This document shows, one piece after another, positions 15,549 through 43,459 of a DNA stretch of 64,000 nucleotides (within the stretch, counting starts at the first letter, position 1; every line of letters begins with the position of its first letter). The DNA comes from Kitasatospora paranensis (GTDB taxonomy: Bacteria > Actinomycetota > Actinomycetes > Streptomycetales > Streptomycetaceae). The translations under genes were made by a program, and so were the position numbers. Location: contig NZ_BAABKV010000001.1 in assembly GCF_039544005.1 (NCBI RefSeq), positions 2,666,001 through 2,730,000 of the forward strand, in the 5' to 3' direction. A model generated the notes under the pieces. It searched no databases. It was not told the origin of the DNA and saw only the letters and a program-made list of their open reading frames with translations.

Positions 15549-16830
15549 GGATCGCGATCGTCGAGCCGCGCTCGGCGGGCCACCGGCTGATCGACCGGGG
15601 GCCGAACTCGGCCACGAGGTGGTGGTGGTGACCGCCGGACACGGTGAGCGGCGGGTGCCGGACGCCCACCTCGCCCACGCGGCCCTGGTCGAGACGGTGG
15701 ACACCAACGACGACGCGGCGACCCTCGCCCTGCTGCGCGGCCTGCACGCCCGCGCGCCGCTGGCGGCCGTCGTGCCCGGGTTCGAGCACTACGTGCCGCT
15801 GGCCGCCGCGGCCGCCGCCGAGCTCGGCCTGCCGGGGCTGACGGCCCGTACGGCGGTGGCGCTGCGGCACAAGCACGTGATGCGCGAGGTGCTGCGGGCG
15901 CACGGCATCGACCAGCCGGGCCACGTCCTGGTCGCCGAGGAGGAGCAACTCGCCTCCGCCGTCGCGGCCGTGGGCCTGCCGTGCGTGGTGAAGCCGGTCG
16001 ACCAGTCGGGCAGTCTGCACGTCTGCAAGGCCGCCACGGCCGCCGAGGCGCTCGCGGCGTTCCGCCGGATCCGCGGCTACGGCGCCGGGTACCTGGACCG
16101 GGCCGGCCTGCCGCTGGTGCTGGTCGAGGAGTACGTCGCCGGACCGGAGTTCAGCGTCGAGGGGTACGTCGAGGACGGCCGGGTGACGGTGCTCGGCATC
16201 ACCGAGAAGCAGCTCGGGCCGGAGCCGTGGTTCGTCGAGGTCGGACACCTGGTGCCGGCCCGGCTGGAGCCGTCCGTCGCCGCCGGCGTCGAGGAGTACA
16301 CCCGGCGCACCGTGACCGCCCTCGGCCTCGAACTCGGGCCCTTCCACGCCGAGCTGAGGCTCTCCGCGCGCGGCCCGCTGCTGATGGAGGTGGCCGCCCG
16401 GCTCCCCGGGGACCGCATCCCCGACCTGCTGCGGCTGGCCCACGGCATCGACCTGTACGAGATCACGCTGCGCTGCCACCTCGGCCTGCCGGCGGCGCCG
16501 CGGCCGCCGGCGGGCGGTACCGGGCATGCCGGGATCCGCTTCCTGCTCCGTCCCGACCTCGACCGCTACCGCGCGATGGTGGTCGACCCGGTCCTGCGGG
16601 CGGACGCGCGGATCCGCGAGATCGGCGTGCTGATCGAGCCCGGTGCGCCGATCCCGCCGCGGGGCAGCTCGTCGAGCCGGCTCGGCTACGCCATCGCCGC
16701 GGGGCCCGGCCGCGACGAGACCGCGGCGGCCCTGGACGCCGCCGAGCGCGGCGTGCGCTTCACGCCGCCGTCCTCCCCCGCCACGACCACCGCACCCCGA
16801 ACGGAGCCCCCATGGGACGGCACGTCCTGA
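15542..16830 (+). CDS. ATP-grasp carboxylate-amine ligase 1; frame broken once
   Basis: About 429 residues after one G is added to the GGGGG run at 15597-15601, which joins GHRLIDRGAELGHEVVVVTAGHG. Seen: the pre-ATP-grasp domain (about 1-110), RHKHVMREVLRAHGIDQPG, the glycine loop CVVKPVDQSGSLHVCKA, EEYVAGPEFSVEGYVEDG, and ELRLSARGPLLMEVAARLPGD carrying the metal-binding acidic residues. ATP-grasp ligases form a peptide-like amide through an acyl-phosphate. The M-E-V-A-A-R-L-P-G-D form resembles L-amino acid ligases such as BacD. The second ligase overlaps its 3' end by 19 bases. Substrates are unknown. Confidence 0.85.
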
Positions 16831-18053
16831 TCCTCAACCGCTGGAACAACCGGTTCGCCGAGTACCACCGCTACCTGGACCACCGGGTCGACCGGGTGAG
16901 CTACCTGACCACCGCGGCCGGGCGCGGCCCGCTGGACGCGGCGCTGGCCGAGGAGATCCGGGAGGTGGCCGACCTGGCCGACCGGGCCGAGGTGATCGCG
17001 GCGGCCGCCGAACTCGTCGCCGCGCACGGGCCGTTCACCCATGTGCTGGCGCTGTCCGAGTTCGATCTGGAGCTCGGCGCGGAGCTGCGCGAGGCGCTCG
17101 GCGTGCCCGGCAAGGGCAGCGCGGAAGTCCGGCTGGTGCGCGACAAGGTCGTCATGAAGGCGGCGGTGGCCGCCGCCGGCCTGCGCGTCCCGGCGAACCG
17201 CGCGGTCGCGTCCGCCGACGAGGTCCGCGCCTTCGCCACCGAGCACGGCTTCCCGTTCGTGCTCAAGCCGCGGGCGGGCGCCGACAGCCAGGGCGTGCAC
17301 ATCCCGGCGGACGCGGCGGCGCTCGACGCGGTGCTGGCCCGGGAGGCGGCGGACGACGGCACCCTGACGGACCAGCAGTGCGAGGAGTTCGTCGACGGGA
17401 CGCTGTACCAGGTGGACGGCGTGGTCAGCGGCGGGGTGCTGCGGACGGTGCGCAGCTGGCGCTGCCTGGGCTCGTGCCTGGACTTCGCGGTCGGCTCGCC
17501 GTTCGGTTCGGTGGCCAACGACGACCCGGCCTTCGAGGCCCGGGTGGTGGAGTTCACCGAGGGCGTGCTGGCCGCGCTGCAGCTCACCGACGAGGTCTTC
17601 CACCTGGAGATCTTCCGGACGGCCGGCACCGACGAACTGGTCTTCCTGGAGATCGGCGCCCGGGCGGGCGGCGGCCAGGTCCGGTTCGTCTGGGAGGAGG
17701 TGTACGGCCTGGACCTCATCGAGGCCTCGGTGCACGTCCAGCTCGGCGTGGAACGGGAGTACCCGCGGGCCGACGTCGGCGGCGAGGTCGCCGGGTACCT
17801 GATGATGCCCGAGCCGCCGGTGCGGCCCGCCGTGGTGCACCGGGTGGCCCCGCTCGGCGGGGCCGTCCCGGAGATCTACGCCGAGGCGCTGCCGCCGGCC
17901 GGGACCGTGCTGGACGGCAACGGCGGGGCGGTGCACACGGCCGGCGCCTTCCGCTTCCGGGCCGGCACCTCGGCGCAGGTGCAGAGCGCGATCGAGACCG
18001 CTGTGAAGCTGTACGAGATCGACTGGTCACCCGCGGAGGCGACCGGTGTCTGA
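16812..18053 (+). CDS. ATP-grasp carboxylate-amine ligase 2
   Basis: 413 residues, intact frame. Begins MGRHVLILNRWNNRFAEYHRY. Seen: LVRDKVVMKAAVAAAGLRVP, the ATP-binding FVLKPRAGADSQGVHI, CEEFVDGTLYQVDGVVSGG, and FLEIGARAGGGQVRFVWEE, where E and the N/R-equivalent residues would bind magnesium. Only weakly like its neighbour, so the two probably act on different substrates or in sequence rather than being a recent duplication. The stop overlaps the exporter start by 8 bases. Two ligases in a row, together with the absence of an NRPS, suggest one or two amide bonds in the product (inference). Confidence 0.85.
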   Translation: MGRHVLILNRWNNRFAEYHRYLDHRVDRVSYLTTAAGRGPLDAALAEEIREVADLADRAEVIAAAAELVAAHGPFTHVLALSEFDLELGAELREALGVPGKGSAEVRLVRDKVVMKAAVAAAGLRVPANRAVASADEVRAFATEHGFPFVLKPRAGADSQGVHIPADAAALDAVLAREAADDGTLTDQQCEEFVDGTLYQVDGVVSGGVLRTVRSWRCLGSCLDFAVGSPFGSVANDDPAFEARVVEFTEGVLAALQLTDEVFHLEIFRTAGTDELVFLEIGARAGGGQVRFVWEEVYGLDLIEASVHVQLGVEREYPRADVGGEVAGYLMMPEPPVRPAVVHRVAPLGGAVPEIYAEALPPAGTVLDGNGGAVHTAGAFRFRAGTSAQVQSAIETAVKLYEIDWSPAEATGV

Positions 18054-20235: not shown

Positions 20236-20363
20236 ACGGAAGAACGTAGGGCACTCCGTCGGCCGTTGAGCCGGGCCACTTCCGGTCCGGTTCACCGAAC
20301 CAATTGCCCTGCCGGGTGCGGTGCGCGCCCGGCGGGGCCCGTCAGTGGGGAGACACCAGCAAC

Positions 20364-20971
20364 GTGTTCGTCAAGATCTGCGGTCTGAGCACCGCGCGGG
20401 ACGTCGCCGCAGCCGTCGGGGCCGGGGCGGACGCGGTGGGCTTCGTGCTCACCGAGAGCCCGCGCCGGGTCTCCCCGAGGTGGTGCGCGGCCTGGTCGAG
20501 GAGGTGCCCGACGGGGTGCTCACGGTGGCGGTGTTCCGGGAGGAGCCGTCGGCCGAGGTGCGCCGGGCGGCGCTGGCGGCCGGGGTCGGCGCGGTGCAGC
20601 TGCACGGCGGCCACCCGGCTTCCGCCTTCGCCGAGTTGGCGGATCTGGGGCTGACCCTGGTGCGGGCCACCACGGCGGCGCTGGCGGCCGGCGCGTCGGT
20701 CGGGGACTTCGGTGAGGACCTGATGATCCTGGATTCGCCGAGCCCGGGCTCCGGTGAGCCGTGGAACTGGTCGGACCTGGGCGCGAACCGGCCGAGCGGA
20801 TCGTGGATGCTCGCGGGCGGGCTCGGCCCGGGCAACGTGGCGGAGGCCGTCGCCGCGGCCCGCCCGTGGGGGGTGGACGTCTCCAGCGGGGTCGAGGTGC
20901 GGCGCGGCGTCAAGAGCCCCGAGCTGATCGAGGAGTTCGTCCGGCGGGCGCGGCTCGCCCCGACGGGCTGA
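20364..20971 (+). CDS. trpF: Phosphoribosylanthranilate isomerase TrpF; frame broken once
   Basis: Amadori isomerase converting N-(5'-phosphoribosyl)anthranilate to CdRP, a (beta/alpha)8 barrel of about 202 residues. Seen: FVKICGLSTARDV (catalytic Cys in KICG), AVQLHGG, MILDSPSPGSGE (catalytic Asp), LAGGLGPGNVAEAV and GVDVSSGVE (phosphate site). One C added to the CCCC run at 20473-20476 restores RRVSPEVVRGLVEEVP. Its presence is notable because Streptomyces normally lacks trpF and uses the HisA/TrpF bifunctional PriA. GTG 20364 is a likely start; no strong SD is seen. It is separate from the other trp genes, with a terminator behind it. Confidence 0.92.
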
Positions 20972-21049: not shown

Positions 21050-22521
21050 TCAGCAGCGCCCGGCCGGGGCGGGCCGGGCCACCCTGCGGTGCACGGGGGC
21101 GGCGGGCGGGCGGCGGCGGCCGGCGCGCTGCTCGTCGACGGCGTCGCGGATGGCGTACATCGACTCGGCGATGCCGGCGAGCGGCAGGGTCGAGTAGCCG
21201 ATCACGAGGGCGGCCGGGTGCTCGCCCGGGCCGAACCGGTGGCGCCGGCCGCCGTGCACCAGGACGGACCGTGCCAGGGCGGCCTCCACCAGCACCGACT
21301 CGTCGATGTCCGGGGGAGTTCGAGGTAGGCGTGCAGCCCGGCCGAGGATCCGGCGACCCGGGCGAACGGCAGGTGCAGGTCCACGGCCTGGGTGAAGGCC
21401 TCCCGGCGCGAGCGGTAGCGGGAGCGGACGCGGCGCAGGTGGCGGTCCAGCATGCCGCTGGTGATGAGTTCGGCGAAGGCCCGCTGGGTGATGCCGTCGG
21501 AGCCGAGGTCGTGCCGGGATCTGATCCGGCCGATCATCGCGGCGAGGTGCGGCGGGATGACCATCCAGCCGAGCCGCAGCCCCGGCACCAGGGCCTTGCT
21601 GGCGGTGCCGGCGTAGACCACGTGGTCGGGTGCCATGGACTGGAGCGCGGAGGGGCGGCTGTGGCGGTCGAACCAGAACTCGCCGTCGTAGTCGTCCTCG
21701 ATGATGAGCCCGTCCACCTCCTCGGCCCAGCGGACGAGGTCGCGGCGGCGCTGCGCGGACATGGTGACGCCGGTCGGGAACTGGTGGGCGGGTGTCACCA
21801 GGACGGCCCGGACCCCGGTCGAGGCGAGGTACTCGACGTCGATCCCGTCGGCGTCCACCGGGACGGGCACGGTGTGCATGCCGCTGTCGTCGATGAACCG
21901 GCGCTGGCCGCTGTGGCCCGGGTCCTCGATCGCCAGCGTCCGGACCCCGAGCCGGGGCAGTGCCTCGCAGAGCAGGGAGAGCCCCTGGGCGAAGCCCGCC
22001 GTCACCATCACCGTGTCGGTGCTGCCGCGTACCCCGCGCACCCGGCCGAGATAGCCGGCGAGCGCATCGCGCAGCGCCGCCAGACCGGCGACGGGCGGAT
22101 AGTCGAGTTCGTCGCGGCCGGCTGCCGCGAGGACCGTCCGATAACAGGCCAGCCACTCGATGCGCGGAAAATTGGTCACATTTGCACGGCCGGTGCGAAG
22201 GTCCCAGGAGACGGGTAACGCCGGCTCCCGCTCCACCAGCGGCGTGGAATTCGTTGATGTTTCACCGTACGGCCGTTCGGCGACCCGCGTCCCGGATCCC
22301 TGGAGGCATATGAGATATCCCTCGGCGGTCAGCTGCTCGTATGCCTCGACCGCCACGCTCCGCGATATGCCCAGGTCACTGGCGAGTTGGCGGGTGGACG
22401 GGAGGCGGGTGCCGGGATGCAGGATCCGTTCGGCGATCCGACATTTGACGGCTTCCTGGATTTGCTTTGTCAGCGACTCGCTGGATTCACGATCCACCTC
22501 GATCGAGATGTGCCATGTCAT
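21050..22521 (-). CDS. MocR/GabR-type transcriptional regulator (GntR HTH fused to PLP aminotransferase-like domain); frame broken once
   Basis: About 490 residues. Residues 1-80 form a GntR winged helix (LTKQIQEAVKCRIAERIL, GTRLPSTRQLASDLGISR, AEGYLICLQGSGTRVA). From about residue 110 there is a fold-type I aminotransferase domain with IIEDDYDGEFWFDR (PLP-contact Asp) and YAGTASKALVPGLRLGW (Schiff-base Lys in S-K). Such regulators sense PLP or an amino compound as external aldimine and often act on a divergent gene. One G added to the GGGGG run at 21312-21316 restores the C-terminus LPPDIDESVLVEAALARSVLV. It is divergent from block B, so it is the best candidate for the cluster-specific regulator. 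Confidence 0.88.
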
Positions 22522-22574
22522 ACCGCGCCCCTCCCCAAGAGCCGTGGCCAGCCTGCCACACGAACTCTCCACAT

Positions 22575-26002: not shown

Positions 26003-26006
<4 letters not shown>
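25219..26006 (+). CDS. trpC: Indole-3-glycerol phosphate synthase TrpC; last codons frame-shifted
   Basis: 262-residue (beta/alpha)8 barrel that closes CdRP to indole-3-glycerol phosphate. Seen: the N-terminal helix MHLDEIVARKREDW, VIAEVKPKSPSKGQL (catalytic Lys in EVK), PVLYKDFLVD (second Lys), VETFTAQEIERAL (catalytic Glu), GINNRDLQTFSVDLE, VSESGI and ALIGENLL. GAAGGAG lies 10 bases before GTG 25219. As written, the frame runs past trpB's start without a stop; one G added to the GGGGG run at 25993-25997 gives ...GVTVGGTA and a TGA overlapping the trpB ATG (ATGA), the expected arrangement. Confidence 0.93.
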
Positions 26007-27182
<1,176 letters not shown>

Positions 27183-27196
<14 letters not shown>

Positions 27197-27983
27197 GAAG
27201 ACCTTCGCCCGGCTCGCCGAGCGCGGCGAGACCGCGCTCGTGGCGTACCTGACGGGCGGCTACCCGAGCCTGGCCGAGACCGGCCCGCTGATCGAGGCGG
27301 TCAGCTCGGCCGGCGCCGACATCATCGAGCTCGGGGTGGCGTTCTCCGACCCGCTCGGCGACGGCCCGGTCATCCAGGCGACCACCCAGGCCGCCCTGGA
27401 CGGCGGCGCGACCGCCGCCGCCGTGCTGGACATCGTGGCCGGTGCCCGGGAGAACGGCGTGCAGACCCCCATCATGCTGATGGGGTACTGCAACCCGTTC
27501 CTGCGCTACGGCCTGGAGCAGCTGTACGCCGACGCCAAGGCGGCCGGCGCGGACGGCTTCATCGTCCCCGACCTGCCCGCGCACGAGGCCGACGAGTGGC
27601 TCGCCGCCGCCCGCACCCACGACATGGCCCAGGTGTTCTTCTCCGCGCCGGGCAGCAGCGAGGAGCGGCTGCGCAACACCGCGGCACGCTCCCGCGGCTT
27701 CCTCTACTCGCTGGCCGCCAACGGCGTTACCGGTGTCCGCGAGGAGCTCGACCCGGGCATCGACGCCTACCTGGAGCGGGTCGGGGACGCGGCCGGCACG
27801 CTGCCGGTCTGCGTCGGCTTCGGCATCTCCCGGCCCGAGCACGTGCGGGCGCTGCGCGGCCGGGCCGCGGGCGTCATCGTCGGCAGCGCGCTGCTGCGCG
27901 CCATCGGCGACGCGGACACCCCCGCCGGCCGCATCCTGGCCGCCTCCCGGCTGGTCGGCGAGCTGAAGGAGGCCTGCCGGTGA
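27183..27983 (+). CDS. trpA: Tryptophan synthase alpha chain TrpA
   Basis: 266 residues; splits indole-3-glycerol phosphate to indole and glyceraldehyde 3-phosphate. Seen: VAYLTGGYPSLAET, IIELGVAFSDPLGDGPVIQ (catalytic Glu in IELG and Asp in DGP), GYCNPFLRYG, GADGFIVPDLPAHEADEW, YSLAANGVTGVRE and VCVGFGISRPEHV. GTG 27183 lies inside the trpB end. The stop overlaps the first aminotransferase start (GTGA), so tryptophan genes and amino-sugar genes are in one transcript with coupled translation. Confidence 0.95.
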
Positions 27984-32401: not shown

Positions 32402-33505
32402 CCGTCCGGATCCCGCTGGAGACCCTGCGCGCATTCGCCCGCGAGGCGCTGCACCGCTCCGGCCTCGGCGAGCAGGACGCCGCCACCGCCGCCGAGGTGG
32501 TGGTGTACGCCGACGAGCACGGCTTCACCACGCACGGCAGCAACGCGCTCGCCGGCATCTACTCCCCGCGCCTGCTCGACGGCCGGATCAACCCGGCCGC
32601 GCAGCCCCGCACCGTCCACGAGAGCGCGTCCTCCGCCGTCCTCGACGGCGACGGCGGGCTCGGCCTGGTCACGACCTCCTCGCCACCGACCTCGCGGTCG
32701 CCAAGGCCCGGCAGACCGGCATCGCCATGGTCGCCGTCCGCAACAGCAGCCACTTCGGGAGCGCGGGCTACTACGCGCACCGCGCCACCGAGGCCGGCCT
32801 GATCGCCATCGCAATGACCAACTGCGGCGCCCAGGGCGTCGCCCCGCCGCTCGGCGGGCTGACCCGGATGCTCGGCACGAACCCGCTCGCGGTGGCCGCG
32901 CCGGCCCCGGCGGCGCCCCGTTCGTCCTCGACATGAGCGCCACCACGGTCGCCACCGGCAAGATCCGGGCCGCCCAGCGCGAGGGCCGGCAGGTGCCCGA
33001 GGGCTGGCTGACCACCCCGGACGGCAGCCCGGTCACCGACCCCGACGCGTACTTCGAGGGCAAGGCGGACGTCACCTGGCTGGGCGGCTCTGCCGCCACC
33101 GGCGGCGCCAAGGGCTACGGCCTGGCGATCCTGGTCGACCTGCTCTGCGGGCCGCTGGCCGGAGCCTCCTGGGGGCCCACCCCGGACCTGCTGGTGAACG
33201 GCGACGAGCGGCCGGACACCGACATCGGCCACACCGTGATAGCCATCGACCCGGCCGCGTTCGGCGCCGCCGAGTCCTTCGGCCGCGGCGCCCGCGAGCT
33301 GCTGGACACCGTGAGCGCCTGCCCGCCGGCCGTCCCCGGCGGCCGGGTCACCTACCCGGGTGCGCCGGAGGCCGTCCGCGCCGCCGAGTCCCGCAGCGCG
33401 GGCGTGGCCCTGCCCGGCCACGTCGCGGCCCAGCTCGCCGCCATGGCCGAGCGCCTCGAACTCCCGCTCCCCGCCGAGCTGCAGGCCGCGGAGGCAGCGC
33501 GATGA
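32398..33505 (+). CDS. Ldh-family (malate/L-lactate dehydrogenase type II) oxidoreductase; frame broken twice
   Basis: About 369 residues after adding a C at CC 32678-32679 and at CCCC 32905-32908. Seen: EQDAATAAEVVVYADEHGFTTHGSNAL, IAMVAVRNSSHFGSAGYYAHRA (His of the catalytic region), AIAMTNCGAQGVAPPLGG, MLGTNPLAVAAPAPGGAPFVLDMS and TGGAKGYGLAILVDLL. This is the NAD(P)-dependent family of ureidoglycolate, sulfolactate, delta-1-piperideine-2-carboxylate and 2,3-diketogulonate reductases. It usually reduces an alpha-keto acid or cyclic imine. Coupled to both neighbours by ATGA-type overlaps. It may reduce the 2-oxo acid made by one of the other enzymes (inference). Confidence 0.83.
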
Positions 33506-34812
33506 GGATCGGTGTGATCGGCCTCGGGGTGATCGCCCCGTACTTCCTGCGGGCGATCGAGCAGGACGACCGGCTGAAGCTGACCGCGGCCTGCGACCTC
33601 GACCGGGCGAAGCTGGACGCCCTGCCGGAGGGGGTGGCCCGTTTCACCGACCACCGCGAGCTGCTCGCCTCCGGGCTGGTCGACGGCGTCGTCGTCACCC
33701 TGCCCAACCACCTGCACGCACCGGTGGTGACGGCCGCCCTCACCGCGGGCGTGCACGTCTGCTGCGAGAAGCCGCTCACCGTGGCCGGCGCCGACGCCCG
33801 CGAGCTCGCGGCCGTCTCGCAGCGCACCGGCAGCACGCTCTTCACCGCCTTCCACCGCCGCTACAACAGCCATGTGCAGCGCCTGGCGGCGGAGTTGCCC
33901 GACCGGAGCGAGATCGTCCGGGTGGTCGCCCGCTACCACGAGCGGATCGAGGAGCACACCGGCGACGACCACTGGTACCTGGACCGCGACCGGTGCGGCG
34001 GCGGCTGCGTCATCGACAACGGGCCCAACGCCCTGGACGCGCTGCGCCAGGTGCTCGGCGAGCTGACCCTCACCGACGCCACCCTCGGCGACGTCCGCGG
34101 CGGCGTGGAGTTCTACGCCGAACTCGAACTGCGCACCGAGGACGGCATCCCGGTCGCGGTCGAGCTGGACTGGGCACTGCCCACCGGCGAGACCAAGGAC
34201 ATCACCGTCCACCTCCGGGACGGCAGCACGCTGGACGCTGACATGCTGGCCGGCTACGAGGGCTTCAAGTCCTCGCTGGACCACGAGTACCGGGGCATCA
34301 TGGCGGACTTCCGCGCCGCGGTCGAGGCCGGGCCGGAGCGGGTCGACGACGGCCCGGTGGTGGTCGACCTGGTCGAGGAGGCCTACCGGATCGGCCGGCG
34401 CAAGGAGCGGCGGCTGCGGATGCCCGCCAAGCGGCCGGTCGAGGCCGCCCTGGTCAAGCTGCTCTTCCACCGCCGGACGGACCGCGGGATGGAACTGTCC
34501 CCGTGGGACACCCGCTGCGTACGGGCCGGCGACGTGCACGAGCTGGTCACCACCACCGACCGGCCCGCCGCGGCGGGCGGCCGGGTCGACGCCGTCGGAT
34601 TCCTCGGATTCGCCGAGTTCCGCGACGCCACGGTGCTCGGAAAGGGCGATCAACTGTGGCTGGGTGAGAGGCTGGTGGGTGTGGTGGCCGGCTTCGACGA
34701 ATGCCATGCGCCGAACCACTACAACGTCCTGATCCACACCGACCGGCTGCTCAGCGCGGAGGACCTCGACCTGCGGGCGGGCGACCGGGTCGTCTTCAAG
34801 GAGCACGCATGA
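33502..34812 (+). CDS. Gfo/Idh/MocA oxidoreductase with an extra C-terminal domain
   Basis: 436 residues, intact. Residues 1-300 are a standard Gfo/Idh/MocA protein: IGVIGLGVIAPYFLRAIEQ, VVVTLPNHLHAPVV, VCCEKPLTVAGADAREL (catalytic E-K-P), TAFHRRYN, and GGCVIDNGPNALDALRQ. Residues from about 320 to 436 form an additional compact domain with RGMELSPWDTRCVRAGDVHE, VDAVGFLGFAEFRD and FDECHAPNHYNVLI, with conserved-looking Cys, His and Asn. I do not recognise its function. Total length is about 100 residues above the family norm. A WbpB-like role, oxidising a sugar to the 3-keto form for an aminotransferase, is possible but not shown. Confidence 0.82.
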   Translation: MRIGVIGLGVIAPYFLRAIEQDDRLKLTAACDLDRAKLDALPEGVARFTDHRELLASGLVDGVVVTLPNHLHAPVVTAALTAGVHVCCEKPLTVAGADARELAAVSQRTGSTLFTAFHRRYNSHVQRLAAELPDRSEIVRVVARYHERIEEHTGDDHWYLDRDRCGGGCVIDNGPNALDALRQVLGELTLTDATLGDVRGGVEFYAELELRTEDGIPVAVELDWALPTGETKDITVHLRDGSTLDADMLAGYEGFKSSLDHEYRGIMADFRAAVEAGPERVDDGPVVVDLVEEAYRIGRRKERRLRMPAKRPVEAALVKLLFHRRTDRGMELSPWDTRCVRAGDVHELVTTTDRPAAAGGRVDAVGFLGFAEFRDATVLGKGDQLWLGERLVGVVAGFDECHAPNHYNVLIHTDRLLSAEDLDLRAGDRVVFKEHA

Positions 34813-35486
34813 CGGACACCACCACCGCCGCGACCCCGGCCCCCATCACCGTGGACGCCGCCGCCGCGGACGCCTTCCCCGGCGTCGAGGTGCTCGGCAC
34901 CGTCGCGGACGTCCGGGACGAGGGCCTCGCGGAGGCCGCCGAGGAGCTCTGGCTGGCCCAGCACGCCCTCTGGCAGGGTCACTCCCGGGCGGAGATCCGC
35001 AACCACCCGCGGGTGGCCGCCTACCGGCAGCTGTCCAAGCTGATCGGCACCGACCCCGACCGCCAGCCGCCGTCGATCCAGGCACTGATCGACCGCGGGC
35101 TGCGCGGCAAGCCGGCCGGCGCCTGGCCCCGGATCAACCCGGTGGTCGACGCGGTCAACGCGGCGGCCGTCACCGACCTGGCCGCGCTCGGCGTCTTCGA
35201 CGCCGACAAGGTGACCGGCGCGGTGCGGCTGACGGTGAGCCGCGGCGGCGAGTCCTTCCTCGCCCTGGGTGCGGACCACTCCGCCGAGCTCGACGCGGGC
35301 CGCCTCGTGCTCGCCGACGACGCCCGGGTGCTCTCGCTGTTCGCCCACCGCGACGGCGTGCACCAGTCCGTCACCGCGGCCAGCCGCCGGGTCCTGCTGC
35401 TCGGCTGCGTCGTCCCGGGCATCGACCCGCAGTCGGTGGCCGACTCGCTCGTCCGCGCCGCCGCCCTGGTCACCGGGCGCGGTTGA
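34809..35486 (+). CDS. B3/B4 domain protein (tRNA-synthetase editing-domain type)
   Basis: 225 residues. The body matches the B3/B4 domain of the phenylalanyl-tRNA synthetase beta chain, the site that hydrolyses mischarged tRNA: RVAAYRQLSKLIGTDPDRQPPSIQALIDRGL, RINPVVDAVNAAAVTDLAALGVFDADKV, and ADDARVLSLFAHRDGVHQSV. Stand-alone copies are widespread, and some are thought to edit tRNA or to recognise amino acids. As the last gene of block B, translationally coupled (ATGA) to the Gfo/Idh gene, it could protect the host by clearing tRNA charged with a toxic amino acid analogue (inference). Confidence 0.83.
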   Translation: MTDTTTAATPAPITVDAAAADAFPGVEVLGTVADVRDEGLAEAAEELWLAQHALWQGHSRAEIRNHPRVAAYRQLSKLIGTDPDRQPPSIQALIDRGLRGKPAGAWPRINPVVDAVNAAAVTDLAALGVFDADKVTGAVRLTVSRGGESFLALGADHSAELDAGRLVLADDARVLSLFAHRDGVHQSVTAASRRVLLLGCVVPGIDPQSVADSLVRAAALVTGRG

Positions 35487-35535: not shown

Positions 35536-35704
35536 TTCGTACGGCACACGCACCTTTCCGCAGGCCCGAACTGGTCCGTGCACACCGGTGCGAAGTGGTT
35601 TGGGTCCGCGACCGGCCGAGATGGTGGAGTGATCCCAGAGACCGACGGAGCGGAGCGGCCGGCGCCGCCCGCCCGCCCGCGGTCCAGGCCCTACCGGGGG
35701 ATTG

Positions 35705-37166
35705 ATGACCACACTCACCACCTCGTCGGCCACGGACACCCTGACCGTCAGCGTCACTTCGGAGCCGCTGCTCCACCGCGATCCGCTGACGCTCTACCAG
35801 GACGTCCGTACCGTCACCGAGGACTGCTACCTCTTCGAGAGCCTGGCCGGACCGGCCGACGACCTGCGCTGCGCCGTCGTCGGCTGGGGTCGGCTCGCCG
35901 AACTGCGCTTCCACGAGGACCGGGTGGAGCTCGACGCCGAGGGCCGGTCGGCGACGCACTGGGCGCCGCACTGGACGCGGTGCTCGGACCGGAGCGCCGG
36001 CTCGCCGGCCCCGGCCGGGTGTTCGACGCGATCCGGGCCGCGCAGGCGGTCTTCACCGTCCGCACCGACCGTCCCGCCGCCTTCGCCTTCGGCTTCCTGA
36101 CCACCCTCGGCTACCGGGCCGCCTGGGACATCGAGGACCTGCCGTCGCCCGAACGCGCCGACGACACCCCGCGGCAGACGCTCACCCTCTTCCAGCACAC
36201 CGCCTGGTACGACCTGGCCACCGGCACCGCCCGGCTGCTGACCGCCACCGGGCCGCTGCTCCCCGAACCGGCACCGCTGCCTCCCGCGGGCCCCCGGCCG
36301 GCCACGAGCCGCCGCCGGCGCCGGCCCCGGACGCCGTCCACGACAGCGTCACGGAACGGGAGTTCCTGGCGCGCACCGAGCGCTGTCTGCGCCACATCGG
36401 GATCGGCGACGTCTACCAGATCCAGATCGGCCACCGGATCGACGTACGGACGGCACTCGCCCCGCTCGACGCGTACCGGCGCCTGCGGCACCGCAGCCCG
36501 GCGCCGTACATGTACCTGCTGCCGTGGGCCGGCCGGACGGTGGTCGGGGCCAGCCCCGAGCTGTACGTCCGGCTGGACGACGGGGTGCTGACCATGCGGC
36601 CGATCGCCGGCACGGTGGCCGCGGGGCCGGACGGCGAGGAGGCCGACGCCTCCCGGGCGGCCTCGCTGAGCGGCAGCGCCAAGCAGCGCGCCGAGCACGT
36701 GATGCTGGTCGACCTCTGCCGCAACGACGTCGGGCGGGTCTGCCGCCCCGGCACGCTGGGCGTCGACTCGATGATGCGGGCGGAGCCGTTCGGCTACGTC
36801 CACCACCTGGTGTCCACCGTCTCCGGGCGGACGGAGGCCGGCGTCGACGTCTGGGACGTGGTGAAGGCGACCTTCCCGGCCGGGACGATGACCGGCGCGC
36901 CCAAGATCCGGGCGATGGAGCTGATCGAGGAGATCGAGCGCGAGCCGCGCGGCCTGTACGCGGGCGCGGTCGGCCTGGTCGACGTCCGGGGCTTCGCGGT
37001 GTTCGCGCTCTGCATCCGCACCGCCGTGCACCACCGGGGCGTCTACTCCATCCAGGCCTCGGCCGGGGTGGTCGCCGACTCCGACCCTCGCGAGGAGTGG
37101 CAGGAGACCAACACCAAGCTGAGCGCCGCCTACTGGGCGCTGACCGGTGAGGAGTCGACCGCATGA
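35705..37166 (+). CDS. trpE: Chorismate-utilising enzyme, anthranilate synthase component I type (TrpE-like); frame broken twice
   Basis: About 487 residues after adding G at 35950-35951 and C in the CCCCC run at 36291-36295. The C-terminal chorismate-binding domain has IGDVYQIQIGH, GASPELYVRLDDG, MRPIAGTVAAGPDG, LVDLCRNDVGRVC, HLVSTVSGR, FPAGTMTGAPKIRAMELI and YAGAVGLVDVRG. The P-I-A-G-T form (Ala, not Lys) excludes a PabB-type aminodeoxychorismate synthase and fits anthranilate or 2-amino-2-deoxyisochorismate synthase. The N-terminus has YLFESLAG, like the L-x-E-S feedback motif of TrpE. The ATGA overlap with trpG shows that the two subunits are made together. Confidence 0.87.
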
Positions 37167-37752
37167 ACGTCCTGCTGGTGGACGCCTACGACAGCTTCAG
37201 CCACATCATCGACCAGTACCTGCGGGCTCTCGGCGCCCGGACGACCGTCGTCCGCTCGCACACCCGGACGCCGGCGCAGCTGGTCGGCCTGGCGCCGGAC
37301 GTCGTGGTGCTGGGCCCCGGCCCGGGGCACCCGGCCGACAGCGGCCACGTCGAACTCGTGCACGCCTTCGCCGCGGAGCGGGTGCCGATGCTCGGCGTCT
37401 GCCTCGGCCACCAGGCGATCGCGCTGGCGTTCGGCGGCCGGGTGTCGGTGGCCCCCGCCCCATGCACGGCAAGACCAGCGCGGTCGACCACGACGGCGCC
37501 GGCGTCTTCGCCTCGGCCCCGCCCGGCCCGCTGACCGTCACCCGCTACCACTCGCTGGTCGTCGAGGAGCCGCTGCCCGCCGACCTCCGGCTGACCGCGC
37601 GCTCCCTCGACGACCACCAGGCGATGGGCCTGCGGCATCACGAACTCCCGATCGAGGGAGTGCAGTTCCATCCCGAGAGCGTCACCACCCAGGGCGGTGA
37701 GCGGCTCTTCGCGGCCTTCCTGGACGGCGCCGCCGTACGCGCCGCGGCCTGA
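37163..37752 (+). CDS. trpG: Glutamine amidotransferase, anthranilate synthase component II (TrpG/PabA); frame broken once
   Basis: About 196 residues, class I amidotransferase supplying ammonia to component I. Seen: VLLVDAYDSFSHIIDQYL, VVVLGPGPGHPADSG, MLGVCLGHQAIALAFGG (nucleophile Cys), VAPAPMHGKTSAVDHDG after adding one C to CCCC 37458-37461, YHSLVV, and VQFHPESV (His and Glu of the triad). The PMHGKTS motif is shared by TrpG and PabA, so the partner decides the product. Followed after 45-84 bases by the PaaK-type gene. Confidence 0.92.
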
Positions 37753-37836: not shown

Positions 37837-39245
37837 ATGTGGCTGCCCAGCGAGGGCCCCGCGGCGGAGTTCGCCGCCGACTACCTCCCACTCCACCGAG
37901 CCTTCTACGCACGTGAGTTGAGCGACGAGGCGCTGACCGGGTGGCGCACCGCCCAGCTCGCCCGGGTGCTGGACCAGGTGGTCGCCGGATCACCGTTCTA
38001 CGGCAAGCACCTGGCCGGGGTCGACCTGGCCGCGGTCGGGCCGGACGACCTCACCGACCTGCCCTTCACCACCAAGGACGACCTGCGGCGCGAGATGCTC
38101 GACGTGCTCAGCCGGCCGCTGCACGAGGCGGTGTTCTTCTACGAGACCACCGGCACCACCGGCCGCGCCACCCCCTGCCCGCGCGACGGCCGCGAGGTCC
38201 TGGCGAGCAACGCGCACGTCACCGAGAGCTGGGCGTCGATCTTCCGGCACCACTTCGGCGACCGCAGGCCGCGGATCGGCCTGATGGGCCCGACCGAGGT
38301 GCACTCCTTCGGCGACACCCTGGGCGACGTGGCCCGCAACACCGGCTCGATGAACGCCAAGATCTGGCCGTACTCCCCGGTGATCGGCTTCCCCAAGGCG
38401 CTCCAGCTGATGAAGGACCTCGGCCTGGAGGTGATCTGCTGCACCCCGGCGTGGCCCTCACCCTGGCCAAGGCCGCCGAGCACTACGGCTACGACCTCAA
38501 GAACGACTTCGGCGTCAAGCTGCTCTTCGTCACCGGCGAGATGTGCACCCCGGCGCTGGCCGCCAACCTGGAGTCGGTCTGGGGCGCGGACGTCTACAAC
38601 ATCCTGTACGGCTCGCAGGAGGCGTTCGTCATCGCCACCGCCTGCCGCAACAAGCGGATGCACCTCTCGCAGACCAATTACCTCTTCGAGGTGGTCGATC
38701 CGGACGACGGCACCTCGCACGGGCCCCGCGGCACCGGCGAACTGACCGTCACCATGCTGGTCGACGGGGTGAAGCCGCTGGTGCGCTACCGGACGGGCGA
38801 CACCGTCGTGGTGGAGGAGTCGGACTGCGACTGCGACATGCCCGGCGACCTCGTCCGGATCGTCGGCCGCACCCTCGACCGGATCAGCCTCGGCGAACAG
38901 CGTTTCACCGCCGGGCAGATCGAGACGGCCGTGCTCGGCGGCGTGACCGGCTCGGCCGGCTACCAGGTGGTCATCGAGGCCGACGAGGCCGGCCGCGACC
39001 GGCTCACCGTCCGGCTGGAACTGCTGCGCGGCGAGAGCGTCGACACCGCGGCGATCGCCGCCCGCGCCACCGGGGCGCTCGGCGTCCCCGTCACGGTCGA
39101 GCTCAGCGACGGCCTCGACCCGATCGTCAGCACCGGCGCCTTCGTCAGCTGGAAGGCCGCCCGGATCGTCGACCGCCGCACCGAGCCCGACCACGAGACC
39201 CGGGTGGCCCAGAAGATGGCGGCGAACCGTGGCTTCACCGACTGA
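37837..39245 (+). CDS. Phenylacetate-CoA ligase (PaaK)-type adenylate-forming enzyme; frame broken once
   Basis: About 469 residues after adding a C to CCCC 38444-38447 (VICCTPGVALTLAKAAEHYG). Seen: QVVAGSPFYGKHLAG, LPFTTKDDLRREM, FFYETTGTTGRATPCPRDG (the P-loop-like T-T-G-T-T-G), FVTGEMCTPALA, LYGSQEAFVIATAC, LVRYRTGDTVVV and RTLDRISLGEQRFTAGQIE. PaaK relatives activate aromatic acids such as phenylacetate, anthranilate or hydroxybenzoates to the AMP ester and often the CoA ester. Position behind trpE-trpG suggests an anthranilate-like acid as substrate (inference). The first ATG at 37798 would add 13 residues; 37837 is chosen for the nearby GAGAGGA. Confidence 0.83.
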
Positions 39246-39258
39246 CGCCCGGCCCGCC

Positions 39259-39900
39259 GTGACGGATCTGGTCGACCGGCTGGTGGACGAGTTCGCGACC
39301 CGATGGACGGACCTGACCGAGCGCTGGGCGGCCAGACCCGGCACCGTGCTCGGCACGCTCGGCCCGAGCGGCACCTCCAGCCACCTGGCCGCCGACTTCC
39401 TGGCCGAGCGCTACCCGATCGCGGTGCGGCTCTACCCCGCCTTCGACGAGGTGCTGAACGCCCTGCTGCAGGGCGAGGTCGACATCGTCCTCGTCCCCAG
39501 CGCCTACTCCGGGCTGACCAGCTTCCACTGGCACCGCGAGCTCGAACTGCTCGGCTTCTTCCCGCGGGCCACCCCCGACTACGGGATCGCCTCCCGCACC
39601 GACGGGTTCGGCGACAAGCCGGAGCTGCGGGTGTCGGCGATGTGGGAGGTCCGCCGGATCTACGACGAGGTGGTGCCGGACGACCTGCGCGAACGCCCGA
39701 TCACCTGGGTCGACGCCGAGTCCACCCAGCAGGCCGCCGAGATCCTCGCCGCCGGCGGCAGCGACCTCGCGGTCACCAACGGCCCCGGCGTGCGGGCGCA
39801 CCACCTGCGCTGGATCGCCGCCCGGCCGGGCGCGGAGATCCTCTGGACGGTCTTCGGCCCCCGCACCCAGCCCCTCGCCCCTTCCGCACCTTTGGAGTGA
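39259..39900 (+). CDS. BacA-like prephenate decarboxylase / prephenate dehydratase-fold protein
   Basis: 213 residues, close in length to Bacillus BacA (204). GTLGPSGTSSHLAADF (32-47) parallels BacA's N-T-L-G-P-E-G-T-S-S; ESTQQAA (154-160) parallels its T-S-Q-A-A; AVTN (171-174) parallels A-L-T-N; and WTVFG (196-200) parallels W-S-L-F-G. Prephenate dehydratases carry T-R-F in that last region; here it is absent, as in the non-aromatising decarboxylases (BacA, and homologues in salinosporamide and aeruginosin pathways). The predicted reaction is prephenate to a dihydro-4-hydroxyphenylpyruvate. No regulatory ACT domain. GTG 39259 is chosen over an upstream GTG because it gives the BacA-like length. 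Confidence 0.72.
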   Translation: MTDLVDRLVDEFATRWTDLTERWAARPGTVLGTLGPSGTSSHLAADFLAERYPIAVRLYPAFDEVLNALLQGEVDIVLVPSAYSGLTSFHWHRELELLGFFPRATPDYGIASRTDGFGDKPELRVSAMWEVRRIYDEVVPDDLRERPITWVDAESTQQAAEILAAGGSDLAVTNGPGVRAHHLRWIAARPGAEILWTVFGPRTQPLAPSAPLE

Positions 39901-39908
39901 ACACCGCC

Positions 39909-41177
39909 ATGGCACCCAGACTGCTGCTGCACAACGTCGGCGTGCAGGAGGGCCTCGGCCGGGCCACCGTGCCCGCCCGGAGCGTCCTGCTCGACGGCGA
40001 CCGGATCGAGGCCGTCCTGCCGGCCGGCGAGGCCCCGGTCGACACCCCCGGCATCGAGACCGTCGACCTGACCGGCCGCACCGTCATGCCGGGCATGACA
40101 CTCGGCCACACCCACATCGCCTACCTGGACGTGCACGACGCCCGGGAGATGCTCTTCAAGTACTCCGTCCCGGAGCTGACCCTGCGGGCCGCCGCCAACA
40201 CCACCGCGCTGCTGGGCTGCGGCTACACCGCGTTCGTCGGCGCCGGATCGGTCTCCGGCATCGACATGGCGCTGCGCCGCGCGGTGGACTCCGGCCGGCT
40301 GCTCGGCCCGCGGATCACCCCGTGCAGCCGGGACCTGATGGTGTCCGGCCCGCCGGAGCGGCGCAACGGCGAGGTGAAGAAGCGCATCCCGACCGACCTG
40401 ATGCGGCTCGCCGACACCCCGGAGGAGATGGCCGAGTACGTCGCCGGGGAGATCGCCGAGGGCGCCGAGATCGTCAAGGTCTTCTCCTCCGGCGACGACA
40501 CCTTCCCCAACGGCCGTTCGCACGAACTCCTTTTCACCGCCGAGGAACTGGTCGTCGCCGCACGCACCGCGCACGAGCACGGCGCCCGGATCCGGGCGCA
40601 CTCCCGCGGCCTGCAGGGCATCCGCAACGCGATCGCCGCCGGCGTGGACGTGATCGACCACGCCAGCTACGCGGACGACGCCGCCCTGGAGGCGATCGCC
40701 GAGCGCGGCATCTTCGTCGTGCCGAGCCTGCACCAGCCGCACCGGCTGCTCACCACCGGCGAGCAGCACGGGAAGACCACCGACTACCTGGAGTCGCTGG
40801 AGTTCACCGCCGAGGTGGAGAACACCCTGCGGATCCTGCCACTGATGGTCGAGATGGGCATCCCGGTGGTGGCCGGCGACGACTTCGGCTTCGCCTGGAC
40901 TCCGCACGGCAGTTACGCCGAGGAGCTCGAGACGTACGTGACCATGGCCGGCATCCCGGCCCGCGAGGTGCTGCGCTGGGCGACCGCGAACGGCGCGGCG
41001 CTGGCCGGCCGCGGCGACGAGGCCGGCACGGTGCAGCCCGGCCGGCTGGCCGACCTGGTGGTCACCGCCGAGGACCCGGCCGAGTCGATCACCGTGCTGT
41101 CCCGCCCGGGCGGCATCGAGGCCACCCTGCTCGGCGGCCGCGTGGTCGCCGGCACCCTCTCCCCGCCCGCACCCTGA
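39909..41177 (+). CDS. Metal-dependent amidohydrolase-superfamily enzyme
   Basis: 422 residues, intact. N-terminal beta-sandwich start LLLHNVGVQEGLGRA, then metal motifs GMTLGHTHIAYLD (H-x-H), VKVFSSGDDTF in the carbamylated-Lys region, RIRAHSRGLQGIRNAIAAG (His), VDVIDHASYADD (His), and PVVAGDDFGFAWTPHGS (Asp). The C-terminal PGRLADLVVTAEDP closes the beta-sandwich. This is the organisation of imidazolonepropionase/Xaa-Pro dipeptidase-type amidohydrolases that hydrolyse amides, cyclic amides or dipeptides. In the cluster it could open a ring, remove a protecting group or mature a pro-form; the substrate is not predictable. It starts 8 bases after the BacA-like gene's stop. Confidence 0.87.
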   Translation: MAPRLLLHNVGVQEGLGRATVPARSVLLDGDRIEAVLPAGEAPVDTPGIETVDLTGRTVMPGMTLGHTHIAYLDVHDAREMLFKYSVPELTLRAAANTTALLGCGYTAFVGAGSVSGIDMALRRAVDSGRLLGPRITPCSRDLMVSGPPERRNGEVKKRIPTDLMRLADTPEEMAEYVAGEIAEGAEIVKVFSSGDDTFPNGRSHELLFTAEELVVAARTAHEHGARIRAHSRGLQGIRNAIAAGVDVIDHASYADDAALEAIAERGIFVVPSLHQPHRLLTTGEQHGKTTDYLESLEFTAEVENTLRILPLMVEMGIPVVAGDDFGFAWTPHGSYAEELETYVTMAGIPAREVLRWATANGAALAGRGDEAGTVQPGRLADLVVTAEDPAESITVLSRPGGIEATLLGGRVVAGTLSPPAP

Positions 41178-41190
41178 CCGGAGCCGCCCG

Positions 41191-42424
41191 ATGACCGCCA
41201 CCGCCCCCGGGGCCTGCCCTTCCTGCCCGTACTGGCCGTCGGCGCGTTCGCCATCGGCACCGACACCTTCGTGGTGGCCGGAGTGCTGCCCGAGGTCGCC
41301 CGCTCGCTGTCGGTCGGAATCGACGAGGCGGGCTGGATCAGCACCGCCTTCGCGCTGACCTACGCGGTGATGGCCCCGGTGCTGGGCGCCCTCACCGGCC
41401 GCATAGACCGCCGGACGATCCTGCTGGTCTCGCTGCTCGGCTTCGCCCTCGGCAACGCGCTCTCCGCGCTGGCACCCGGGCTCGGCCTGCTGCTCGCGGC
41501 CCGCGTGGTCACCGCGGCGAGCGCCGCCCTGTACATCCCGGCGGCCTCCGCCGGCGCCGCGGCGCTCTCCGCCCCCGAACGCCGGGCCCGCGCCATGGCG
41601 GTGGTGCTCGGGGGCCTGTCCGCGGCGACCGTCGCCGGGGTGCCCTTCGGCACCTGGCTGGCCGCCGACCTGAACTGGCGCGCGACCTTCTGGCTGCTGG
41701 CCGGCCTCGGCGTGCTGTGCGCCGCCGCGGTGGCCTTCGGCCTGCCGTCGCTGCGGCTGCCGGCCTCCCCGGCCTGGCCGCCCGGCTCGCCCCGGCCCGC
41801 GACCCGCGGGTTGCGGCCACGGTGGCCACCACCCTGCTGTTCATGACCGGCGGCTACCTCGCGCTCACCTACATCGGCGCCGTGCTCGCCCCGGCCACCG
41901 GCGGCAACGGCAGCACGCTGGCACTGCTGCTGCTCGCCTTCGGCGTCACCGCGGTGGCGGGGACGACACTGGCCGGCCGCGCGGTCGACCGGTGGAGCCC
42001 GTCGCCGGTGCTGCTCGTCTCCGTGCTGCTGCTGGGCGCGGCCGTGGCGACGCTGCCGCTGACCCGGGGCCACCTGGCCACGGCGGCCGTCGCCCTGGCG
42101 GTCTGGGGATTCGCCGGGATGGCCACCCAGCCGCCGCAGCAGCACCGGCTGTTCGGCATCGCCCCGCAGTCCGGGCCGCTGCTGATCTCGCTGAACTCCG
42201 CGGCCACGTTCGCCGGGATCGCCCTCGGCGGCTGGCTCGGCCAGCAGGTGCTGCGGTCCGCGGACGGCGCCGACCAGGGCCTGGACCGGCTGGGCCTGTT
42301 CGGCGGCGCGATCATCGGCCTCTCGCTGCTGGTCGCCCTGGTCGCCACCCGGCTTCCGGCCCCGGCCGCGCCGGCGCCCGCACCGGCGGCGGCACCGGCT
42401 CCCGCCGGCGTCTCCGCCGACTGA
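41191..42424 (+). CDS. MFS transporter (arabinose-efflux/chloramphenicol-resistance type); frame broken twice
   Basis: About 411 residues with 12 helices after adding one C to CCCCC 41204-41208 and one to CCCC 41767-41770. Corrected start MTATAPRGLPFLPVLAVGAFAIGTD followed by FVVAGVLPEVARSLSVGIDEAGWISTAFALTYAVMAPVLGALTGRIDRR, the characteristic N-terminus of DHA1-type efflux pumps (CmlR, AraJ). The C-terminus ends in an Ala/Pro tail. A second exporter within the locus, likely for export or self-resistance. Follows the amidohydrolase by 13 bases. Confidence 0.86.
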
Positions 42425-42465: not shown

Positions 42466-43128
42466 ATGGACGAAAGACCAGTGAGCATCCTCGCGATCTG
42501 CGGGTCCGAACGGGAGGGCGGCAACACCGATCTCGCGCTCGGGTACGCGGGCCGGCTGCTGCGCGAGCGCGGCGCCCGTTTCGAGGTGCTGCACCTGCGG
42601 GACCACCGGATCAGCCCGTGCAGCCCGTGCGGGGACTGCAACAGCCGACCGGTCACCTGCGAACTGCGCGACGACATGCCGTCGATCGTGGCGCGGATGG
42701 CGGCGGCCGACGGCCTGATCTACGCCACCCCGGTGCACGGCTTCGGGCTGGCCCACCTGATGCAGATCTTCATCGAGCGGGCCGGCGTGGGCTACCTGCG
42801 CTTCGAGCGGCCGCTGGCCAACAAGGTCGGTGGGGTGATCGTCACCGGCCGCCGCTACAGCGAGGCGTCGGTCCACAACCAGCTGGTGGACAACCTGCTG
42901 CTGAACCGGATGATCCTGGTCGGCAGCGGCTTCCCGGCACTGCTGCGCAACACGGCGCCGGACCCGGGTCTGAACGACCCGGAGGGCGTGGACGCGCTGG
43001 AGCGGATGGTGCACCGGATGCTGGACATGTGCCTGCTGCTGCGGCGCAGTAGGGGAGAATGCCCGGACGACCCGTTGCCGTCGTACGACCGCAACGAGCG
43101 GATCTCCCGCCGGGGGCTCCCGGTCTGA
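42466..43128 (+). CDS. Iron-sulfur flavoprotein / NADPH-dependent FMN reductase-type protein
   Basis: 220 residues. The flavodoxin-like fold has ILAICGSEREGGNTDLAL (FMN phosphate loop), YATPVHGFGLAHLMQIFIERAG and LANKVGGVIVTGRR. Between them is a cysteine cluster, CSPCGDCNSRPVTC (C-x2-C-x2-C-x6-C), the compact motif by which iron-sulfur flavoproteins bind a [4Fe-4S] cluster. So it is more than a simple FMN reductase. In the C-1027 enediyne pathway an Fe-S FMN enzyme (SgcG, from memory) oxidises 2-amino-2-deoxyisochorismate made by a TrpE-like protein. The presence of this gene with trpE and trpG makes such a role a live alternative. It starts 41 bases after the transporter. Confidence 0.83.
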   Translation: MDERPVSILAICGSEREGGNTDLALGYAGRLLRERGARFEVLHLRDHRISPCSPCGDCNSRPVTCELRDDMPSIVARMAAADGLIYATPVHGFGLAHLMQIFIERAGVGYLRFERPLANKVGGVIVTGRRYSEASVHNQLVDNLLLNRMILVGSGFPALLRNTAPDPGLNDPEGVDALERMVHRMLDMCLLLRRSRGECPDDPLPSYDRNERISRRGLPV

Positions 43129-43156: not shown

Positions 43157-43459
43157 ATGACCACTGTGGACCCTCGCATCACCGACCTGCGGCAGCGGAT
43201 CGACGCTCTGGACGAGCAGTTGGTGGCCGTCCTGGCCGAGCGGGTCGCGGTGGTGCGCGAGGTGTCGCGGTACAAGACGGACGAGGCGTCGGTGAAGGCC
43301 CCGGACCGGGTCGAGCAGGTGGTCGCCAAGGTCCGGGCCCTGGCCGACGGCCACGGCCTGCCGGCCGACCTGGTGGAGCGGCTCTACCGGCTGCTGATCG
43401 CCGAACTGACGGCCGTGGAGCTGGCCTGCGTCGAGGAGCGGGTGGCCGGCCGGCCCTGA
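43157..43459 (+). CDS. AroQ-class chorismate mutase / isochorismate lyase-like protein
   Basis: 100 residues, the all-helical AroQ subunit size. RIDALDEQLVAVLAERVAVV, VSRYKTDEASVKAPDRVEQV and LVERLYRLLIAELTAVEL align with both AroQ mutases and PchB. R12, R29, K40 and R51 occupy the substrate-binding positions. Position 88 is Glu where bacterial mutases and PchB carry Gln. The A-P-D-R-V stretch is closer to PchB's A-P-E-R-V. It could make prephenate for the BacA-like enzyme or act on an amino-isochorismate. Last gene of the cluster; its end is inside a strong hairpin. Confidence 0.82.
   Translation: MTTVDPRITDLRQRIDALDEQLVAVLAERVAVVREVSRYKTDEASVKAPDRVEQVVAKVRALADGHGLPADLVERLYRLLIAELTAVELACVEERVAGRP

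Follow-up and report, generated by a model that had tools for sequence, protein, structure and literature searches.

The window (the whole 64,000-nt stretch of Kitasatospora paranensis DNA that was analysed) carries the features listed in Table 1, among them an ORF of 223 amino acids for a BacA-like protein, situated directly 3′ of a PaaK-like adenylate-forming ligase gene. Two in-frame GTG codons are both possible starts; the ligase frame stops at 39243–39245 and overlaps the BacA-like gene if the first of them, at 39229, is used. The families of the operon genes were assigned mostly on an orthologous locus, L029, and TrpC and TrpD of the window were read by eye only. The BacA-like, amidohydrolase, FMN reductase and AroQ frames read through; apparent frameshifts affect TrpE (two), TrpG (near 37453), the PaaK-like ligase (one, near 38445) and the MFS gene (near 41771), which, in an otherwise intact-looking cluster, reflect either indel (assembly) errors or decay. 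A further apparent frameshift was noticed by eye at about 32400–33505, and at 33502–34812 a Gfo/Idh oxidoreductase is fused to a DUF6917 domain.

Table 1. Features of the window, with coordinates, strand and the basis of each assignment (percentages are identities to the L029 orthologue unless stated otherwise)
Feature	Coordinates	Strand	Basis
ATP-grasp protein with LAL_C2, accessory	15640..16830	+	family scan
Second ATP-grasp-type protein, accessory	16806..18053	+	weak Pfam matches
TrpF-like (PRAI)	20321..20971	+	PF00697
MocR/PdxR-like regulator, two pieces	21128..22530	-	50% and 45%; NF052282 in orthologue
TrpB, cluster copy	26003..27196	+	TIGR00263, 562.5 bits
TrpA	27183..27983	+	TIGR00262, 239.2 bits
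B3/4-domain-type protein, accessory	34809..35486	+	divergent, 29-31% identity to its counterparts in other loci; PF03483 in L029
TrpE-like chorismate-binding subunit, PIAGT	35702..37166	+	52-69% in three frames
TrpG-like glutamine amidotransferase subunit	37163..37752	+	65-73%; named by eye
PaaK-like adenylate-forming ligase	37837..39245	+	80-83% in two frames
BacA-like, prephenate-dehydratase-fold protein of clade I (fold predicted)	39229..39900	+	GTG 39229 or 39259
Amidohydrolase, Xaa-Pro dipeptidase / arginine carboxypeptidase type	39909..41177	+	82%
MFS exporter (start approximate)	41214..42424	+	67-78% in two frames
NADPH-dependent FMN reductase family (start approximate)	42472..43128	+	78%; PF03358 in orthologue
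AroQ-fold protein, PchB (isochorismate lyase)-like	43157..43459	+	PF01817, 77.1 bits (cut-off 27)

The host genome, a single contig of 8.4 Mb with 96% completeness, yielded one copy of the BacA-like protein on search. A second TrpB (59% identical) is encoded elsewhere in the genome, with a TrpE-like gene near it, which makes the trp genes in the window an extra copy. The tryptophan/ATP-grasp setting described in the initial annotation is thus borne out, trp genes and two ATP-grasp proteins being present. The resemblance it drew to bacilysin, by way of an ATP-grasp ligase and an MFS exporter, stands in part: both are present, but ATP-grasp is an accessory and the two proteins are not BacD orthologues, the first scoring 45.5 bits against a BacD cut-off of 850 and the second finding no BacD row at 1e-5. 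Two aminotransferases of DegT type are also encoded in the window, and both score best, below cut-off, on models of sugar aminotransferases; a cupin resembling that of other clade I loci (see below) was not found in it. To assign the B3/4 protein to tRNA editing or self-resistance would be a guess.

Four blocks which had been matched to BacA are all located in the ORF (GTLGPSGTSS at residue 42, STQQAA at 165, AVTN at 181, WTVFG at 206), and the TRF motif, said to be missing, is indeed lacking, with W-x-x-F at that place. Among 20,000 shuffles of the protein, the ordered pattern LGPxGT..STxxAA..T..WxxF occurred in none, LGPxGT alone in 11. That the protein is a prephenate dehydratase making phenylpyruvate is very improbable: its fold (see below) and a weak match to the Pfam PDT family (PF00800) would agree with such a function, but the match (21.4 bits) is below the cut-off of 25.2, so that neither of the two marks of that enzyme, the Pfam score and the TRF motif, is found, and the genome already encodes a normal prephenate dehydratase (166 bits) in whose sequence TRF is kept.

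A search of PDB sequences with the BacA-like protein gave weak, unrelated matches only, as did one with a BacA-type protein (defined below), which made a fold search necessary. An AlphaFold2 model computed from the 19 clade I rows reached a pLDDT of 86.8. With this model Foldseek placed prephenate dehydratases at the top (6vh5, E 1.2e-10), and VIA-align against 3mwb gave Z 14.7 over 173 residues (rmsd 3.6, 17% identity); other dehydratases were at Z 11–13 and porphobilinogen deaminases at about 10. Structure prediction had been proposed initially as a check on the assignment; the protein is predicted to have the catalytic fold of prephenate dehydratases and, at 223 residues, leaves no room for an ACT domain.

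Homology to BacA holds as well. On plasmids, tblastn found 19 records at 25–35% identity, nine of them annotated as BacA (29–35%). Among 70 genomes of the genus, five contain a BacA-like match, the host being one of the five; 28 of 394 genomes of the same family have one, namely the window's own, six close ones (58–66% identity) and 21 distant ones (31–37%). A contig scan with the close group recovered 18 named loci, 13 in Streptomyces and five in Micromonospora, a lower bound as the scan demands exact peptide patterns. When a clade I profile was searched at class level, 9 of 394 genomes gave a match, and two of these have divergent clade I-like loci (L090 and L091). As a working label, the 24 distant rows are called “BacA-type”; they comprise the 21 genome rows, L077 and L078 (both annotated as BacA), and L075, whose annotation reads prephenate dehydratase domain protein.

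A branch with 100/100 support, whose stem measures 3.66 changes per column, sets the 19 clade I rows apart from the others in a 44-row tree. This tree does not resolve the BacA-type rows as a single group (10% of bootstrap trees show one change), and its sole outgroup is one long dehydratase row. Common to clade I and BacA-type rows are GPxGTSS, AY, TPxYG, STxxAA, T183 and WxxF. Ten positions are fixed in all 24 BacA-type rows, namely Glu73, Tyr100, Met101, His138, Pro139, Pro141, Ser167, Phe195, Ile202 and Met204 (window numbering), and every one of them is changed in the window protein and, by commonest residue, in clade I, eight being fixed to other residues in 19/19 clade I rows. In all 19 rows the Tyr-Met following Phe99 is His-Trp, Ser167 is Gln and Phe195 is Trp; the His-Pro pair, kept in the host dehydratase as in the BacA-type rows, is lost throughout, and is also absent from the divergent L090 and L091, the latter of which retains Phe195 and Met204. 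On sequence grounds the BacA-like protein is thus a member of a separate, well-supported subfamily, clade I, and not simply a BacA.

This bears on the function first proposed for the gene. BacA, SalX and AerD are said to have been described as prephenate decarboxylases by Mahlstedt and colleagues in 2010. The protein resembles them, judged on the BacA-type rows used here, in its predicted dehydratase-type fold, the missing TRF, and the GPxGTSS, AY and WxxF motifs; it differs from the same rows in the loss of His-Pro and eight other fixed positions, and in its operon. It is a real possibility that the protein nevertheless acts as BacA does, as a canonical, non-aromatising decarboxylase of prephenate supplied by primary metabolism, and that the ligases join its dihydro-hydroxyphenylpyruvate to an anthranilate- or tryptophan-derived unit. 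The identity of 29–36% to BacA-annotated proteins, the shared fold type, the lack of TRF and the retention of TPxYG beside AY and WxxF are consistent with it; the changes at the ten positions leave BacA chemistry unsecured and count against it, as do findings on the surrounding genes.

Clade I genes lie in a conserved operon, seen in Streptomyces and Micromonospora. Its core consists of TrpE, TrpG, PaaK-like ligase, BacA-like protein, amidohydrolase and FMN reductase, usually with an MFS protein and a small AroQ. TrpG, PaaK, BacA-like, amidohydrolase and FMN reductase are present in 18/18 named loci, as is TrpE, with PIAGT in every one (17 in a first count), and a MocR match, which is weak and distant in L053. 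The first MFS, B3/4, ATP-grasp, a second MFS and TrpB2 occur in 17 of the 18 loci each, a small cupin in 16, AroQ in 15, and an SDR in 11 by tblastn (7 by ORF clustering). Two of the three named loci without AroQ (L060 and L065) end at contig ends; the third, L053, was negative by profile search too and additionally has no B3/4, ATP-grasp, second MFS, TrpB2 or cupin. L090 has TrpE, TrpG, FMN reductase, PaaK, BacA-like, amidohydrolase, MFS and AroQ, and L091 has the same set minus a detectable AroQ; by the gene content of these three loci, ATP-grasp, B3/4 and TrpB2 are accessories. Homologues of BacB and of BacF- or IlvE-type proteins were not found at 1e-4 in the window and the 18 named loci (tblastn, with S. 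goshikiensis proteins as queries for BacB and BacF), which weighs further against a BacA-like decarboxylation; the cupin (16/18) and SDR (11/18) would fit such a pathway, the small cupin matching a BacB-type cupin marginally (E 0.013). A reduced cyclohexenyl amino acid as building block, the product once anticipated for this cluster, is possible in this light but not supported, neither ATP-grasp protein of the window being a BacD orthologue either. No description of the operon was found by searching an open-access library, nor in the available parts of PMC12118335, PMC5481532, PMC13336041, PMC5754491, PMC7204872, PMC8388817, PMC12329711, PMC2866466, PMC10143770 and PMC11416591.

The small AroQ passes its Pfam model (Table 1), and its best PDB matches are PchB at 43.1 bits and, behind it, E. 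coli chorismate mutase (EcCM; 1ecm) at 37.7; its orthologue in L031 behaves in the same way. For 5/5 operon AroQ proteins scanned, the top NCBIfam model is isochorismate lyase (NF005475), with scores of 51–68 bits where the cut-off is 126. According to the part of PMC12329711 that was available, Ala51 and Val55 of PchB correspond to Asp48 and Glu52 of EcCM; Glu52 contacts the 4-OH of chorismate, and Val55 suits the C4 of isochorismate. In 19 distinct operon AroQ rows (22 minus three duplicates) the Glu52 position is Val in 18 and Ala in one, and the Asp48 position is Ala or Ser, in no case Asp; neither the Glu at position 52 nor a score above the equivalog cut-off for chorismate mutase is found. 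The operon AroQ hence shares with PchB, an isochorismate-pyruvate lyase, the AroQ fold and PchB-type residues at both sites, although it stays well short of that family's cut-off. The idea that it is a chorismate mutase supplying prephenate was dropped on account of its best matches to PchB and isochorismate lyase and of Val or Ala at the Glu52 position (PMC12329711, same part). A profile built from the operon rows also detected AroQ proteins in 6 of 13 BacA-type loci; these keep Arg-Glu, two of the six being read inside longer frames, and the four scanned all exceed the cut-off in two models of chorismate mutase. The AroQ proteins found in BacA-type loci are thus of chorismate mutase type, whereas that of the operon has residues of isochorismate-lyase type, which again speaks against a prephenate decarboxylase in the operon. 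The top score for isochorismate lyase would also suit an AroQ acting as ADIC (2-amino-2-deoxyisochorismate) pyruvate lyase, so that TrpE, TrpG and AroQ would supply the PaaK-like ligase with anthranilate, and the ligase would have in the BacA-like protein a partner that is non-catalytic or acts differently. We regard this as unlikely, since the predicted dehydratase fold and the kept GPxGTSS and STxxAA suggest a working site, and since AroQ accompanies BacA-type genes too.

The TrpE-like subunit of the operon carries PIAGT, as does the host TrpE-like gene near the other TrpB (L069); PIKGT is found in 8hx6, named 4-amino-4-deoxychorismate synthase, and in the host paralogue L070. The motif is not fully diagnostic, for 4grh, named aminodeoxychorismate synthase, carries PIAGT. 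Neither TrpE nor TrpG was matched at 1e-8 in any of 14 BacA-type loci of 17–20 kb each, and within loci of this size three features vary in concert: the type of AroQ, the presence of TrpE/TrpG and the changed positions of the BacA-like protein. Since the search of the window and the 18 loci found no homologue of BacF or IlvE type, the nitrogen could plausibly be introduced into the ring by TrpG. An amiclenomycin/stravidin-like route via 4-amino-4-deoxychorismate was considered and set aside because of PIAGT in TrpE, evidence which 4grh undercuts, and of an AroQ without a residue to hold the C4 substituent; the accessible part of PMC13336041 contains no prephenate step.

PaaK-like ligases occur in both groups of loci. 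They are 41–44% identical in seven comparisons with that of L029 and 35% to the Pantoea one, and of 14 BacA-type loci 9 have a PaaK gene in the neighbourhood of the BacA-type gene, which favours a BacA-like decarboxylation in the operon as well. The closest solved structure is AjiA1; 6siw, in the same list of structure matches, is presumably NatL2. AjiA1 is a benzoxazole-pathway ligase (PMC8388817, in the part available), and its resemblance to PaaK would suit anthranilate as substrate of the ligase, with AroQ as ADIC lyase. The same resemblance prompted the idea of benzoxazole formation, which was rejected, the amidohydrolase giving no clear link. As far as the accessible portions of PMC5481532, PMC7204872 and PMC12118335 go, the nataxazole, caboxamycin and closoxazole clusters encode an AMP ligase and an amidohydrolase, as here, and that of caboxamycin an anthranilate-synthase-type enzyme too, but no BacA-like protein; the PDB matches listed for the operon amidohydrolase are of the dipeptidase/carboxypeptidase type, and no isochorismatase was among the genes family-scanned.

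Two BacA-type loci, L075 of Streptomyces and L078 of Pantoea, have a PaaK-like ligase near the BacA-type gene, as here, in a PaaK-aminotransferase-BacA-OCD arrangement; they differ from the operon in encoding an aminotransferase of IlvE type, an OCD and a Dabb protein, and in giving no TrpE/TrpG match. NRPS and PKS genes adjoin the PaaK-IlvE-BacA-OCD set of L075; L078 is on a plasmid. L077, on a plasmid of Streptomyces goshikiensis, has a bacilysin/anticapsin-like set, which shares a BacA-type gene and an MFS gene with the operon and differs from it in a cupin of two-domain length, two SDRs and an aminotransferase, without a match to TrpE, TrpG or PaaK; L077 and L045, both from Streptomyces, combine a BacA-cupin-SDR-SDR-MFS-aminotransferase set and a Dabb protein. 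The PaaK-like and BacA-type pair recurs in L075, L078, L041, L042, L044, L046, L047, L048 and L093, that is, in Streptomycetaceae, on the Pantoea plasmid and in another actinobacterium, once beside NRPS/PKS genes, and several of these loci also encode an aminotransferase of IlvE type together with OCD and Dabb proteins; one literature search for the pair found no description. An MqnA-like family (PF02621 in the L044 member) is encoded near the PaaK and BacA-type genes of L044, L046 and L048.

The operon seems to be biosynthetic and chorismate-consuming. The reading we prefer, at a probability of roughly 0.4, is that the substrate of the BacA-like enzyme is an intermediate of isochorismate type, aminated at C2, which TrpE/TrpG and AroQ provide, on a route from chorismate via ADIC and amino-isoprephenate to the BacA-like product; every substrate and reaction in it we infer from sequence. 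TrpE/TrpG would aminate chorismate at C2 to give ADIC, AroQ would rearrange ADIC to a pyruvyl-bearing aminocyclohexadiene (amino-isoprephenate), and the BacA-like enzyme may carry out an elimination of the dehydratase/BacA type or an allylic proton shift on the ring of the latter. Activation and final processing of the product would then fall to the PaaK-like ligase, the amidohydrolase and the FMN reductase, and its export to the MFS protein. In its specific form, an isoprephenate-type pathway with AroQ as ADIC mutase and the BacA-like protein as amino-isoprephenate dehydratase, deaminase or isomerase, the proposal is doubtful. For plants, the formation of isoprephenate from isochorismate is described with a putative isochorismate mutase, an activity in extracts of tobacco and a dehydratase that is left unnamed (PMC11416591, in the part available).

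The ADIC route appears to be favoured by the fully supported clade I branch, the ten changed positions, the conservation of the operon, the AroQ residues and the contrast with BacA-type loci; the host, moreover, has its own dehydratase. Several points count against it. Anthranilate may be formed by AroQ acting as an ADIC lyase, or be released directly by TrpE, and the BacA-like enzyme would then need a different substrate; and with an extra trp set in the same cluster, TrpE/TrpG may simply feed tryptophan. AroQ is undetected in L053 and L091, its scores are all below the isochorismate lyase cut-off, and PIAGT is shared by 4grh. The motifs kept in clade I, from GPxGTSS to WxxF, would be compatible with unchanged chemistry; the small cupin and SDR could replace BacB- and BacG-like steps in the named loci that have them; and decarboxylation, the known reaction of BacA, is chemically awkward on isoprephenate. 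Canonical prephenate decarboxylation accordingly ranks close behind the ADIC route.

If the ADIC route is true, the dehydratase/BacA and AroQ scaffolds would have been retuned in step, from the prephenate side to the isochorismate side; isoprephenate-type chemistry would then gain candidate genes, and the operon would mark a family of actinomycete metabolites of which the literature searched gave no description. Even if only prephenate decarboxylation takes place, clade I would extend the BacA family to sequences which lie below Pfam and NCBIfam cut-offs.
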